Shown one piece after another: positions 15,766-60,392 of a DNA stretch of 64,000 nucleotides. Location: NCBI RefSeq assembly GCF_009674605.1, contig NZ_WKJO01000001.1, forward strand, positions 682,001-746,000, in the 5' to 3' direction. The notes beneath the pieces are model-generated. The model did not search any database. It was not told the DNA's origin and saw only the letters and a program-made list of their open reading frames with translations. This stretch comes from Haloferax litoreum. GTDB taxonomy: Archaea > Halobacteriota > Halobacteria > Halobacteriales > Haloferacaceae. Each line of letters starts with the position of its first letter. The stretch's first letter is position 1. Made by a program: the position numbers and the translations under genes.

Positions 15766-15838
15766 GCCCGGGTGGTGTAGTGGCCCATCATACGACCCTG
15801 TCACGGTCGTGACGCGGGTTCAAATCCCGCCTCGGGCG
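15766..15838 (+). tRNA. tRNA-Asp (anticodon GTC), copy 1
   Basis: This 73-nt gene forms a full cloverleaf. The acceptor arms GCCCGGG and CTCGGGC pair, with one G-U. The anticodon loop CTGTCAC carries GTC for aspartate, and the T arm is GCGGG-TTCAAAT-CCCGC. The discriminator is G, as expected for tRNA-Asp. CCA is not encoded. It is identical to the second copy 30 nt downstream. Confidence 0.97.
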
Positions 15839-15868
15839 CTCTCCGTATCCGACAACTCACTTCAGTAA

Positions 15869-15941
15869 GCCCGGGTGGTGTAGTGGCCCATCATACGACC
15901 CTGTCACGGTCGTGACGCGGGTTCAAATCCCGCCTCGGGCG
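15869..15941 (+). tRNA. tRNA-Asp (anticodon GTC), copy 2
   Basis: This is an exact repeat of the first tRNA-Asp over all 73 nt, separated by a 30-nt A/T-richer spacer, so the two are probably cotranscribed. It is followed by CTTTTCC, a short T run that could end transcription. High aspartate usage in haloarchaeal proteins makes extra tRNA-Asp copies understandable. Confidence 0.97.
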
Positions 15942-16016
15942 CTTTTCCGAACGTTACAGGCCAAGCGATGCGTCTCGTCGCGTCGTGCCCCTACGTGCTG
16001 TAAACGCCCAGACAAA

Positions 16017-39208: not shown

Positions 39209-39886
39209 TTACGCGGCGGCCGCTTCGGCCTCTTCGGCGGCTTTCCGCTCTTCTTTCTCTTCTTCTTCCTTCTTCGCCTTGATCTTCTTCAGACGGAAAA
39301 TCTCTTCGCGCTCTTGTTCTTCGAGTTTCTGCTCGATGTACTCTTTGTTCTCGTAGAGTTCGGGGAGCAGTTTGAATTCGAGTGCGTTGACACGGCGCTT
39401 CGTCGTCTCGATTTCTTCGAGCATCTTCTTCATCGCCGTCTCGACTTCCGCCGCGAGGATGATAGATTCGAGAAGTTCCTCGTACGCGTCGGCGGCCTCG
39501 TCGATGCGGGCGGACGACCCGAGAAGCCCGTAGCCACGCTGGTCGAGGCTCTTCTTCACGCGCGAGGACTCGATCTGCGGGACGACGACGCCCATGATGT
39601 TCTTCGACTGCGTCGTGATTTCGGGGTACTCCTTCAGCGCTGCTGCTGCGCCCCGAACCGCGACGTCGCCTTCCATGGCGCGCGCCATGTTGATGGTGCG
39701 CTGTGCGCGTTCGTAGTCCGCGTTGAGGTTCGCACGCACGTCCTGTGCCTGGTCGAGGATGTCCATGAACTCCATGATGAGACCGTCACGCTTCTGTTCG
39801 AGCGTGTCGTGGCCCCGCTCCGAGAGTTCGATGCGATCCTCGATCGCCATCAAGTTCTTGCGGGTCGGCTTGACGTCTTCGGCCAT
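39209..39886 (-). CDS. atpD: A-type ATP synthase subunit D
   Basis: This is part of the central stalk that turns inside the A3B3 head, 225 residues. It is almost wholly coiled coil; [21 protein letters not shown] at the N-terminus is the family signature, and the C-terminal helix is rich in Lys and Glu. It is separated from atpB by the Bat-like regulator gene. The AATCTTTTACTG sequence upstream (about 39917-39928, minus strand CAGTAAAAGATT) may be its own promoter. Confidence 0.95.
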
Positions 39887-40029
39887 CTTTGGCGAGGGTT
39901 GTTCGTCAGGGGTGTTAATCTTTTACTGTCTGGCCCGTCAGACCGGGTGAAATTCGTCACTGAGTGGGGAAGACGAGTGGTGAGCGACCACGGCAAGTCA
40001 CCTAGTGCGACCGAATTGGCCCGGCCCGA

Positions 40030-42000
40030 CTAGTTCGACCCCACTTCGAAGAACTGTGTGACGAGTTTTCGCTCGGCCGCACGAAGGTGCTGGTGGAACG
40101 TCGCCCGCGACACGTCCATCGCCTCGGCGAGTTCGTCGCCCGTGACGCCGTGCGGCCACTCGAAGAACCCGCCCAAGTACGCGAGTTGGAGTGCCGTGTG
40201 TTGTCTATCGGTGAGGTCCGCGCCGACGCTCCCGACGAACTCACGGGGCGTCTGCGGTGGTTCCGACCGGTCTCTGACGGCACGGAGTTCGACACCCGTC
40301 GCGGCCTGTCGAAGGTCGTCGAGTAGTGCACGACCGACCGAGCGGTCTGGAACGACGACGGTGAACCGACTGCCGGTCTCGTCGGCTTCGAGGTCGATGA
40401 GTCGTCCACCGGCGTCCGCGACGAGGTGCGCGAGTGACCCCCCCGACAAGACGAGTTCGGACAGGCCGACATCGTCTCCGCGCGGGACGCGTGCGATGGT
40501 GCCGACACCATCGACGTCGACGTCGGCCGCGTCGAGTTGCGTCGGCGGCGTCGACGAGACGAACAGACTGAGCGTGCCGTCGTCGTGGAGGACCGACCCC
40601 TCGTACGCGAGTTCGCACTCGGTTGCCGCCGCGATTTGGACGAGAGGCTGGGTCGGGTCACTCACGTCGAGTTCGAGTTCGAGGACGCCCTCAGAGATGA
40701 GCGAGCGTCTGCTCTCGAAGGCGTCGATTGCCGCGCCGACCGCTCGGCCGAGCGTTCCGAAGACCACGTTCACCTCGTCGTCGAGTTCGTCTGTGTCTGC
40801 GTACACGGTCAACACGCCGTAGAGCGTCTCTCGGTGGATTATCGGCACTGCAATAGCCGCCCGAAACGGCACGGCCTCACCCTCGTGTAACGACCCGTTT
40901 GCGGCGACGGCAGACTGGACGCGAAGTGTCTCTGCGGCCCGTGCAGTGACATCGTCGGCGTCGCCATCGATTTCGAGTGCTTCGACGAACGCCGTCTCTG
41001 TGCCGGCCCACTCGTTCGGGACGATGACCGCAGGCGAGAGGTCACAGTCACCAATCCACGCGCACGTGAACGACTCTGTCTCCGCGACGCGGGAACACAC
41101 CGCCGCTTCGAGTTCTTGGCGCGTCTCCGCCCTGACGAGGGCCTCCGTCACGTCTTCGAGGAGTCCTTCGATGAGGTCGACGAGCGTGCTGAGTCGCGCA
41201 CGCTCTTCTTCTACCCGCTCGGCGTTCCGCTCTGCGGCTTCTTCGGCACGCACCCGTTCGGTGATGTCCGTCTGGAACCCGACGTAGTGTGTCACCTCGC
41301 CGTTCGGTCCGCTGAGTGGGGCGAGGTCGACCCGGTTCCAGAACGTCTCACCGCCCTCTCTGTAGTTCAGGAGTTCGACCGACGCCGCCGCTTCGTTCTC
41401 GATTGCCGTGCGGAGTTCGGCGACACGTTCCGGGTTCGTTTTCGGCCCCTGTAGGTAACGACAGTTTCGACCCAACGCCGACTCGACAGAGTAGCCCGTC
41501 ATCGACTCGAACGCCTCGTTGACGTAGACGAGAGGTCGGTCGGGGAGCGTGCAGTCGGCGATGGTGATACCGACGGGCGCTTCGTCTATCGCCTGTTCTT
41601 TCAGGTCTTCGGTGATTCGTTCGGCCGCGACTGTTCCGTGTCGGTGCCACGCGACGGCACTCTCGACTCGTTCTGGGAGTCGGTCGAAGAGATTCGAGTC
41701 GACGAGAGGGACAGCATCTGCTGCACCAGCGTCCAGTGCCTGTTCAGACGAGAGGTCACCGTCAGGTGTGACGACTGCGACGAGTGGGGCCGTCGTCTCG
41801 GGTCGCAACGACGAGATGGCGTCGACCCGGTCCGTCGCGACGACGAGGCAGTCGACCGACTCGGCGTCGCATTGCTCCTTCGCTGCATCGACCGACGGTG
41901 CGACAGTGACCGACAGTGGTTCGAGTGCGTCCTCGATTCGACTAGACTCGACCGAATCGACGACGAGAAGGACGTGAGTCTGAGACGAGGATTCATCCAT
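40030..42000 (-). CDS. LOV-domain Bat-type transcriptional regulator
   Basis: This 656-residue sensor-regulator has in order: a receiver-like region without the usual phosphoacceptor (1-115); a PAS/LOV domain (about 138-255) with GRNCRYLQ, whose Cys180 is the photoactive cysteine; a coiled coil; a GAF domain (about 290-430); a Bat-type domain; and the HTH-10 at the C-terminus (LTDRQHTALQLAYLGG...MDVSRATFHQHL). LLNYR and FWNR add the FMN-binding asparagines. Bat proteins control bacteriorhodopsin and other genes in haloarchaea. It sits between atpB and atpD, an unexpected place that hints at energy regulation. Confidence 0.93.
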   Translation of the reverse strand: MDESSSQTHVLLVVDSVESSRIEDALEPLSVTVAPSVDAAKEQCDAESVDCLVVATDRVDAISSLRPETTAPLVAVVTPDGDLSSEQALDAGAADAVPLVDSNLFDRLPERVESAVAWHRHGTVAAERITEDLKEQAIDEAPVGITIADCTLPDRPLVYVNEAFESMTGYSVESALGRNCRYLQGPKTNPERVAELRTAIENEAAASVELLNYREGGETFWNRVDLAPLSGPNGEVTHYVGFQTDITERVRAEEAAERNAERVEEERARLSTLVDLIEGLLEDVTEALVRAETRQELEAAVCSRVAETESFTCAWIGDCDLSPAVIVPNEWAGTETAFVEALEIDGDADDVTARAAETLRVQSAVAANGSLHEGEAVPFRAAIAVPIIHRETLYGVLTVYADTDELDDEVNVVFGTLGRAVGAAIDAFESRRSLISEGVLELELDVSDPTQPLVQIAAATECELAYEGSVLHDDGTLSLFVSSTPPTQLDAADVDVDGVGTIARVPRGDDVGLSELVLSGGSLAHLVADAGGRLIDLEADETGSRFTVVVPDRSVGRALLDDLRQAATGVELRAVRDRSEPPQTPREFVGSVGADLTDRQHTALQLAYLGGFFEWPHGVTGDELAEAMDVSRATFHQHLRAAERKLVTQFFEVGSN

Positions 42001-42143
42001 GTGGCGTGGTAGCGTTCACGACGTAAGGAAGTTCGTGACCACTCGGCACTGAGACACGGTGGCGGACCGGGTCGGCGACGCGTCCGCTCTCGGTGGAAAA
42101 TAGAGAGAGAAATCGGGACCGAAACTGCGAACGAAAACCCGGA

Positions 42144-43550
42144 TTAGGCTTCCGCTTCGACCGTCTCGGCGTCTTCCTGGTAGTACTTCTCGATGAGTTC
42201 TTCGTCGATACGGTTGAGTTCCGACTTGGGCAGGGTCGACAGCAGTTCCCAGCCGATGTCGAGCGTCTCGGCGATGGTACGGTTGGAGTCGAAGCCCTGG
42301 TTGACGAACTCAGCCTCGAAGCGCTCGGCGAAGTCGAGGTACTTGTTGTCACGCTCGGAGAGCGCCTCACGACCGACAATGTTCACGAGGTCGCGAAGGT
42401 CTTCACCCTCTGCGTACGCCGCGTACATCTGGTCGGAAACGTCTGCGTGGTCCTCGCGGGTGAGGCCCTCACCGATACCGTCGTCCATCAGTCGCGAGAG
42501 CGACGGGAGCGGGTTGATCGGCGGGCGGATGCCCTGCGAGTTGAGGTCGCGGTCGATGTAGATCTGACCTTCCGTAATGTAGCCGGTCAGGTCCGGAATC
42601 GGGTGCGTGTCGTCGTCACCCGGCATCGTGAGGATGGGAATCTGGGTGACAGACCCTTCGCGTCCCTCGATACGACCTGCGCGCTCGTAGAGTTGCGCAA
42701 GGTCGGTGTACATGTAACCCGGGTAGCCACGGCGACCGGGGACCTCTTCGCGAGCCGCACCGATTTCGCGGAGCGCCTCACAGTAGTTGGTCATGTCGGT
42801 CAGGATGACGAGGACGTGGTAGTCCTTGTCGAACGCGAGGTACTCGGCCGTGGTGAGCGCGAGACGCGGCGTGACCGTCCGCTCGACTGCGGGGTCGTCC
42901 GCGAGGTTCGTGAAGACGACGGAGCGCTCGAGTGCACCCGTGCGCTCGAAGTCCTCCATGAACTCGTTCGCCTCTTCCTGCGTGATACCCATCGCGCCGA
43001 AGACGACAGCGAATTCGGACTCTTCGTCGTCTCCTTCTTCCTCAGGCACAGTCGCCTGACGGGCGACCTGCAGTGCGAGGTTGTTGTGGGGAAGCCCCGA
43101 TGCGGAGAAGATTGGAAGCTTCTGGCCGCGAACGAGCGTGTTCATGCCGTCGATGGCGGACACACCCGTCTGGATGAACTCCTCGGGGTACTCGCGGGAG
43201 TAGGGGTTGATTGCTGCGCCGACGATGTCACGACGCTCGTCGGGGACGATTTCTGGGCCGCCGTCGATTGGCTGGCCGGAACCGTCGAGCACGCGACCGA
43301 GGAGGTCCTCGGTCACGGGCATCTTGAGCGTCTCGCCGAGGAATCGGACGGACGCGTTCCTGTCGATACCGGTGGTGCCTTCGAACACCTGAATCGCGAC
43401 AAGACCCTCGCTCGATTCGAGGACCTGTCCGCGCTTGGTTTCGCCTCGGGGCGTCTCGATTTCGACGATTTCGTCGTACCCGATCGGCTCGTCGACCTCG
43501 GCGAACACCAGCGGGCCGCTGATTTCGGTGATAGTCTGGTATTCCTTCAT
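42144..43550 (-). CDS. atpB: A-type ATP synthase subunit B
   Basis: This is the noncatalytic nucleotide-binding subunit of the A3B3 head, 468 residues. It has the beta-barrel start ([17 protein letters not shown]) and central [11 protein letters not shown]-like and [17 protein letters not shown]-type motifs of the family. It lacks the P-loop lysine motif, as expected for subunit B. It begins 4 nt after the atpA stop. Downstream a T-rich TCTCTCTCTATTTTCC (minus strand, about 42098-42113) may end some transcripts before the Bat-like gene. Confidence 0.97.
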
Positions 43551-58433: not shown

Positions 58434-60392
58434 TCACGCCGAACCCTCGGAGTCACCGACGGTATCGAAGAGTATCTCGAACCGTGCACCGCCGGTGTCG
58501 CTCTCGGCGGTTCGGATAAGCCACCCGTGCGTGTGGACGATTTGCCGGACGATACCGAGTCCGAGTCCACGCTCTCCGTCGTCTGTGGAACTCACGCCCG
58601 TGTCGAAGATATCGTCACGAACCGACTGGGGGATACCGGGGCCGTCGTCTTCGACGAAGAATCCGCGTCGCGACGGCAGTTGACCGATGCGAATCACGAG
58701 TCCTGTGCCGTTGGTCGACGCACCGTGTCCCACAGCGTCGTCGGAAAGATTCTGACGGCCTGTTGGGCCATGCTCGACAGCGTCATCGGGCTTCGGCCGA
58801 TTGCTCGTGGAAGCGTGTTCCACTGCGTTGCGAAAGAGGTTCTCGAAGAGGCGTTTCACCCGACTCTCGTCTGCTTCGACGACCGGCAGGTCGCTGATTT
58901 CGAGCCTGACGTTTTCAGTGCCCGACCGACTCATCTCCCATGCAACCGCTGCAGTGTCGGCTAACGCGACGGGAGACGTGTCGATGGCGACCTGTTCGTC
59001 GCACGCCATCGAACGAACGTCATCGATTACCTCTTCGATTCTGCGGTGGGCACGTTCGACGTGCTCGAAGTGGTCCAGGTTCCCGTCTTCGCGGGCGAGG
59101 CCGAGTCTCCCCTGTGCCACCGCCAGTGGGCCACGAATGTCGTGCGACAGGACACGAGCGAACGCTTCGAGGCGAGCGTTCTGTTGTGCGAGTTCCTGCT
59201 CGCGTCTGATTCGGTCCGTGAGGTCGGTCATCACGCCGAGCACGTTCGAGACAGTACCGTCTTCTGCGAACAGTGGGACTGCCCGTGCGGCGGCCCACCG
59301 GATGGTCTCAGTTCCTTCGGGGGAGAACCGAAACTCGAAGTCGTATCGCTCTTCGACGACGCCCGCCTCGATATCGGCGAACAACCCGTCTATCTCCCGT
59401 TCGAGTCGGTCCCTGTCGTCGACGTGGACGAGTTCGAGAAACGACAACGGGTTCTCGTAGAGTGCTGTGCGTGGACGTCCCCAGACCTCCTCGAACGTGT
59501 CGTTGATGTAGACGATGTCGAACGCGTCGGGTTCGGAGAGAAAGACCATGTCCGGCAGCGACGAGATGACCTGTCTGGTGACGCGTTCTGACCGTCTAAG
59601 TTCGCGTTCCGAGGCCAAGCGAGCAGTGACGTCCGTCGCCGAACCGACGATGACCTCCTCACCGCCGACCGTCACACGCCGACCGGAGACTTCCATCGAA
59701 ATCGGTCGACCATCACCAGACAGTACGTCGACGGTGTGCGCCATGGCGTCGACACTGCCGTGGTCTCTGGGGGCGATGCCTTCCTCGATTAGATGACGGT
59801 CCTCGTCGGCAACGAACTCGACGACTGGGCGGCCGAGAGCCTCGTCCGGGTCGTAGTCGAGGCGGTCGAGCAGGTAGTCGTTCGCGTACCTCAGACGGCC
59901 GTCTTGGACGACGTACAGTCCGACGAGTGATTGTTCGACGATGGCTTCGTACCACGAGTTCATTCTGTCGCGTTCCGCAGAGTGGCGTGCGTCCGAGACA
60001 GCATCTCGGATGCGGTTACGAAGCGTGTCGAGCGTCGCGTTCGAGTGATCTTTCGGAAGATATCCGGTCGCACCGGCGGCGGTGGCGTCACCCGCAATGG
60101 ATTCAGACCCGTGGCGAGTGAACAGGATGAACGGGAGGTTCGGGTGTTCTTCGCGGACCGTCCGAAGCACGTCGATGCCTGTGGTCTCGTCGAATTCGTA
60201 CTCCGAGACGACGCAATCGACCGTCGACTCGAAGACGCAGTCTACCGCCTTCGTCGGGGAACGAACGGTGTTCACGTGGATGTCTTCGGTTGCGCCGAGT
60301 ACCGCCGCCGTTGCTGCGGCGAACGCACTCTCGTCGTCGACCAGAAGGACGTGAATGGGAGCGTCTGCTTCACGGACGTCCCGAGGAGCCAT
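58434..60392 (-). CDS. hybrid sensor histidine kinase with receiver and two PAS domains
   Basis: This 652-residue cytosolic protein has, in order, a receiver (10-130), PAS (about 148-265), PAS (about 275-405), a HisKA helix with the phosphoaccepting His in LSHDIRGPL, and an HATPase domain (DDGPGIP and GLGLGIV). In the receiver the usual phosphoacceptor position reads SEYE, not SDYD, so Glu64 replaces Asp. The acidic pair (DD at 19-20) and the lysine in GYLPKD stay. A Pro/Asp-rich insertion (EHASTSNRPKPDD) splits the N box region. Signal and partner are unknown. Confidence 0.93.
   Translation of the reverse strand: MAPRDVREADAPIHVLLVDDESAFAAATAAVLGATEDIHVNTVRSPTKAVDCVFESTVDCVVSEYEFDETTGIDVLRTVREEHPNLPFILFTRHGSESIAGDATAAGATGYLPKDHSNATLDTLRNRIRDAVSDARHSAERDRMNSWYEAIVEQSLVGLYVVQDGRLRYANDYLLDRLDYDPDEALGRPVVEFVADEDRHLIEEGIAPRDHGSVDAMAHTVDVLSGDGRPISMEVSGRRVTVGGEEVIVGSATDVTARLASERELRRSERVTRQVISSLPDMVFLSEPDAFDIVYINDTFEEVWGRPRTALYENPLSFLELVHVDDRDRLEREIDGLFADIEAGVVEERYDFEFRFSPEGTETIRWAAARAVPLFAEDGTVSNVLGVMTDLTDRIRREQELAQQNARLEAFARVLSHDIRGPLAVAQGRLGLAREDGNLDHFEHVERAHRRIEEVIDDVRSMACDEQVAIDTSPVALADTAAVAWEMSRSGTENVRLEISDLPVVEADESRVKRLFENLFRNAVEHASTSNRPKPDDAVEHGPTGRQNLSDDAVGHGASTNGTGLVIRIGQLPSRRGFFVEDDGPGIPQSVRDDIFDTGVSSTDDGERGLGLGIVRQIVHTHGWLIRTAESDTGGARFEILFDTVGDSEGSA

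Follow-up and report, generated by a model that had tools for sequence, protein, structure and literature searches.

Between the ATP synthase genes atpB and atpD of Haloferax lies a gene for a Bat-family transcription regulator that looks like a switch retained by selection after the loss of the machine it once controlled. We consider it probable that this gene, bat-LOV (hereafter bat), belonged to a bacteriorhodopsin (bop) cluster as its regulator, that it was kept under selection after bop, crtY, blh and the operator were lost, and that its product switches transcription through a LOV domain. Sequence comparison supplies the architecture of the protein, its residue set, its orthology, the gene cluster present in relatives, the gene losses, the continued selection and the absence of the ancestral DNA box.

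A LOV-type Bat regulator in the ATP synthase cluster

The window, a stretch of 64,000 nucleotides of the Haloferax litoreum genome analyzed as a whole, carries bat as an intact frame that starts with ATG at 42000 and ends at 40030 on the minus strand. The gene, its neighbors and the parts of its product are as follows.

40030..42000, minus strand: bat-LOV gene, transcription regulator of 656 aa (open reading frame and Pfam; orthologue in the same slot in 15/15 Haloferax)
42144..43550, minus strand: atpB, A-type ATP synthase subunit B, upstream neighbor of bat (open reading frame; homologues in 167/170 genomes of the family)
39209..39886, minus strand: atpD, downstream neighbor of bat (open reading frame; homologues in 167/170 genomes of the family)
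41617..41976, minus strand: receiver-like (beta-alpha)5 domain, residues 9-128 (AlphaFold2 secondary structure; alignment)
41236..41607, minus strand: LOV domain, residues 132-255 (PDB sequence and fold matches; invariant columns)
41461-41463, minus strand: codon of the photoactive Cys180, within the LOV domain
41131..41262, minus strand: long signal helix, residues 247-290, joining LOV to GAF (AlphaFold2 model)
40723..41127, minus strand: GAF domain, residues 292-426 (Pfam GAF_2)
40237..40686, minus strand: BAT domain, residues 439-588 (Pfam PF15915)
40057..40215, minus strand: HTH_10 DNA-binding domain, residues 596-648 (Pfam PF04967)

A first-pass annotation of this DNA had described the gene as interrupting the A-type ATP synthase cluster on the same strand, with gaps of about 143 bp. 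This is borne out: atpB and atpD flank bat, all three genes are on the minus strand, and both gaps are exactly 143 bp. A literature search for HVO_0318, which we take to be the locus tag of the H. volcanii bat gene, gave no match. Elsewhere in the window, a second PAS-containing protein without the LOV Cys motif is encoded at 59166-60371 (minus strand, 655-aa open frame), and a tandem pair of tRNA-Asp (gtc) genes lies at 15766-15942 (plus strand).

Pfam placed PAS_9 at residues 143-248, GAF_2 at 292-426, BAT at 439-588 (1e-29) and HTH_10 at 596-648 (2e-19), matching the earlier description of GAF, Bat and HTH-10 domains after the PAS domain; GAF_2, PF15915 and PF04967 all scored above the Pfam cut-offs, as befits a Bat-family member. 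We added the receiver-like N-terminal domain (residues 9-128), which that description lacked, so that the product reads as a LOV-type Bat of the order receiver-like, LOV, GAF, BAT, HTH_10. Haloferax Bat does not show the combination of acceptor Asp and beta-5 Lys expected of a phosphorylated response regulator. In the alignment, read by eye, the beta-5 position of the receiver-like domain has no Lys in Haloferax, and the domain is therefore probably not a phosphorylated receiver.

The PAS domain has the sequence marks of a LOV photoreceptor: a GxNCRFLQ-type motif with Cys180, the Asn/Gln flavin set and the LOV fold. The motifs singled out by the first-pass annotation are where it saw them, GRNCRYLQ at 177-184, LLNYR at 210-214 and FWNR at 220-223. 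The predicted flavin contacts (N179, R181, Q184, N212, N222 and Q243) occupy invariant columns, and the flavin Gln is Q243, within GFQTD. A PDB search with Bat returned only LOV photoreceptors or LOV fusions among the 60 matches listed (best E 5e-34). Structure prediction of the LOV region, proposed earlier as a check, gave an AlphaFold2 model of Bat (mean pLDDT 84) in which this region adopts the LOV fold and overlays solved LOV domains at 0.7-1.2 Å, with TM by target of 0.92-0.96. Because the PDB matches listed are all LOV proteins and the model overlays so closely, the resemblance exceeds chance, and on this sequence and model evidence we identify the PAS domain as LOV. No other protein among the PAS/GAF/HTH relatives found in the H. 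litoreum genome carries the LOV signature (GxNxRxLQ).

The slot in relatives and the loss of the rhodopsin cluster

We compared the positions of bat, atpB and atpD across 170 genomes of the family. In 15/15 Haloferax genomes bat is flanked by atpB and atpD, all on one strand, which answers the earlier question of whether the location is conserved in the genus. In other genera bat lies downstream of atpB, mostly directly, with extra DNA before atpD; the order in sister genera is atpB-bat-bop-crtY-(blh)-atpD, and the genes filling the slot are bacteriorhodopsin (PF01036), lycopene cyclase and often Brp/Blh (Pfam and NCBIfam). Among 35 non-Haloferax genomes, selected for carrying bat at the atp slot, bop lies just downstream of bat in 33, the exceptions being genomes G133 and G140. 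Elsewhere in the family, genomes show an empty slot, or one with bop or crtY-blh but no bat. Several Halobacteriales MAGs from outside the family share the arrangement with bat and bop in the slot, and Halosimplex has it without bop. Within one genus of the family (g21; loci L134, L135 and L136), some members have other genes of 2-4 kb directly after atpB. In G133 atpB matched as two pieces with ~700 bp between them (L178:201-1455, reverse-complement coordinates), which may reflect an insertion, a gap or an intein.

Since the slot of relatives holds bacteriorhodopsin, lycopene cyclase and Brp/Blh beside bat, gene order indicates that the location of bat in Haloferax is inherited from the bop cluster and marks a lost proton pump. 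Rhodopsin (PF01036) is absent from 14/15 Haloferax genomes, that of H. litoreum included. The sole exception (G032, which matches H. mucosum) has a proton-pump-type rhodopsin (ADW..TT..D; L179:5096-5827) far from bat and atp, in a genome without Blh. Blh (PF15461) is absent from 15/15 Haloferax genomes under a model that does detect a relative's Blh, and crtY had no match in the H. litoreum genome in a search lacking its own positive control. The link to bop, or action on it, that goes with Bat in related genera is thus missing here. In the Bat tree, whose deeper branches rest on SH-aLRT from a quick search, the Haloferax proteins form one clade (SH-aLRT 99) within a clade (100) that they share with bop-bearing atp-linked Bats. 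This topology agrees with bop having been lost on the stem of Haloferax, a genus for which rhodopsin loss was already proposed in 2007 (PMC1885257).

Selection, the photoactive cysteine and the missing Bat box

Simple Nei-Gojobori pairwise values, as distinct from a codon-model test, put dN/dS of Haloferax bat at 0.11-0.28 in 8/9 pairs and at 0.46 in one pair with dS 0.04, compared with 0.21-0.34 in bop-bearing relatives. The LOV and HTH parts evolve slowest, with a LOV omega of 0-0.16. Bat identity within the genus is 65-92% against 96-99% for AtpB. On these sequence data, Haloferax bat is under purifying selection and is not decaying.

The first-pass annotation had staked its LOV reading on conservation of the Cys in close homologues, and the residue is kept in all 15 Haloferax species. 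In the tree it is present in 53/53 atp-linked Bats compared (L228 and L237 included as Cys-bearing). Among the Bats sampled from a separate rhodopsin locus (L161-L165, L172-L174) it was lost twice, one clade having Pro in its place and another His; these proteins retain the flavin residues N179, Q184, N212 and Q243 and are likely Cys-less flavin sensors. The contrast is one between atp-linked Bats and these two Cys-less clades rather than all non-atp Bats, as 20 of the 28 Bats in the tree that lie outside the atp slot, whether next to bop or away from it, keep the Cys. Several Natrialbaceae loci (L225, L226, L243-L245, L252, L254, L259 and L260) encode Cys-type LOV-Bats that have neither bop nor atp genes within 8 kb.

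A near-invariant, ACTAGT-centered box of the CCNMACYRGTTSNGNA type stands before bop in almost every genome with an atp-linked bat-bop pair, with a consensus resembling CC(N)AACTAGTTG(T/G)G(T/G)A. This putative Bat box resembles, and presumably corresponds to, the UAS in front of H. salinarum bop. The literature consulted does not settle whether the UAS is contacted by Bat itself or by its partner Brz (PMC2253796). The box had 0 matches in the H. litoreum genome and none above chance within the window. Across the 15 Haloferax genomes, matches stood at chance level for the box (20 vs 16 for the reversed control) and for a second form of it (10 vs 21), and the sequences preceding bat and crtB in these genomes share no ACTAGT-type site. 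An ACTAGT-centered box in target promoters was not found above chance in Haloferax. The recognition helix reads SRATFHQHL in Haloferax Bat and SRSTFHQHL in most relatives.

Two promoter-like elements border the gene.

42022..42034, minus strand: bat TATA/BRE-like element GAACTTCCTTACG (TTA 23 nt before the bat ATG; core TTCCTTA kept in 15/15 Haloferax)
39909..39930, minus strand: atpD promoter-like element GACAGTAAAAGATTAACACCCC (conserved; present with and without bat)

We infer a leaderless-type promoter for bat from the first of these. The second was considered as a Bat site and rejected, as it is also found in genomes without bat. Because the TATA-like element of bat is conserved and atpD has an element of its own, the two genes probably form separate units of transcription, which gives no indication that atp is controlled in cis.

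Candidate mechanism, alternative readings and known systems

The ancestor of Haloferax bat would have been the regulator of a bat-bop-crtY-blh cluster in the atpB-atpD slot. The stem lineage of Haloferax would have lost bop, crtY and blh together with the operator before bop, while retaining bat and its flavin photosensor under purifying selection. By analogy with LOV receptors, the LOV domain of Bat may bind FMN, blue light would form a Cys180-flavin adduct, and Q243 with the long helix 247-290 would relay the change from LOV to GAF/BAT. HTH_10 would then switch transcription at other promoters through a site unlike the ancestral Bat box. FMN binding, photochemistry, signal path and DNA target are thus all predictions for Haloferax Bat. 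In H. salinarum, Brz and Brb act alongside Bat in light activation of bop (PMC3184054), and by analogy Haloferax Bat may need such partners as well. That the regulator has been fully re-wired, so that a working blue-light LOV factor controls new promoters through a changed DNA site and gives a light response without rhodopsin, is plausible but tentative.

The input predicted for Bat is likely light or redox sensing. An alternative is that Bat serves mainly as a redox or oxygen sensor, its LOV-type PAS flavin reporting redox state with light playing a minor part. Halobacterium Bat is active both in light and at low oxygen (PMC3184054), excerpted literature shows that Cys-less LOV receptors can signal through flavin reduction (PMC4682037), and the family apparently manages without an adduct in the rhodopsin-locus Bats that carry Pro or His. 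The conserved Cys does not exclude such a role. A pure redox sensor would, however, be free to lose the Cys, as two other Bat lineages did, whereas all atp-linked Bats compared and every Haloferax species retain it in a LOV domain of low omega; we find this alternative unlikely.

Far less credible is control of the ATP synthase operon in cis, coupling ATP synthesis to light. Its attraction is the position of bat between atpB and atpD throughout Haloferax, but the ancestral bop cluster accounts for that position, the promoter element of atpD is common to genomes without bat, and the window has no Bat box above chance. The first-pass annotation therefore holds as far as a LOV-type Bat regulator with a conserved Cys and location is concerned, but is not supported where it took the location to mean light control of ATP synthase. 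Least probable of all is that bat is a functionless, decaying relic of the bop cluster. Its best-known target and the box are both gone and the protein diverges faster than AtpB, but against this the frame is intact in 15/15 species, purifying selection matches that of bop-bearing relatives in strength, the LOV and HTH parts evolve slowest, and every flavin residue is retained.

The reading we prefer, a bop-cluster regulator kept after its cluster was lost, builds on known systems. According to excerpts of Losi 2014 (PMC4844311), archaeal LOV-HTH proteins combine RR, LOV, GAF and HTH, as Haloferax Bat does, make up 30% of archaeal LOV proteins and had not been studied by 2014; the excerpts do not cover the atp location or the rhodopsin history of Haloferax Bat. 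H. salinarum Bat is a PAS-GAF-BAT-HTH activator of bop and shares its family with Haloferax Bat, but it lacks the photoactive Cys (PMC4844311, same excerpts) and sits inside the bop cluster with its target gene present, neither of which holds for Haloferax Bat. Excerpts of Verma 2020 (PMC7755889) report bop and accessory genes in the same slot between atpB and atpD, and bat alone there, with unclear function, in Haloferax strain pws11; LOV Cys, selection, DNA box and phylogeny are not addressed in those excerpts. The haloarchaeal LOV protein ALovD-1 of Halonotius (PMC12202551) has Cys and Tyr in GxNCRYLQ, as Haloferax Bat does, and a photocycle that works in 3 M salt, but is a histidine kinase rather than a transcription factor. 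Bacterial and plant LOV receptors (YtvA, LOV-HK and phototropin) share the LOV fold and residue set and have other effectors, whereas the output of Haloferax Bat is the haloarchaeal BAT/HTH_10.

LOV-HTH proteins, "bat without bop" in Haloferax, and the family and location of the gene are thus already published. What we add is threefold: the Cys is uniform in atp-linked Bats and missing from two rhodopsin-locus clades, selection on bat continued once rhodopsin was gone, and the box was lost. We found no prior report of any of these in a limited open-access literature, which also yielded no study of any archaeal LOV transcription factor.

Here a regulator has outlasted its target gene and operator and is still under selection. 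Haloferax is a haloarchaeal genetic model, nearly all of its species are rhodopsin-free, and a single LOV-signature regulator was found, so that blue-light sensing is directly testable in it. If true, a re-wired Bat would give rhodopsin-free Haloferax cells a light response.
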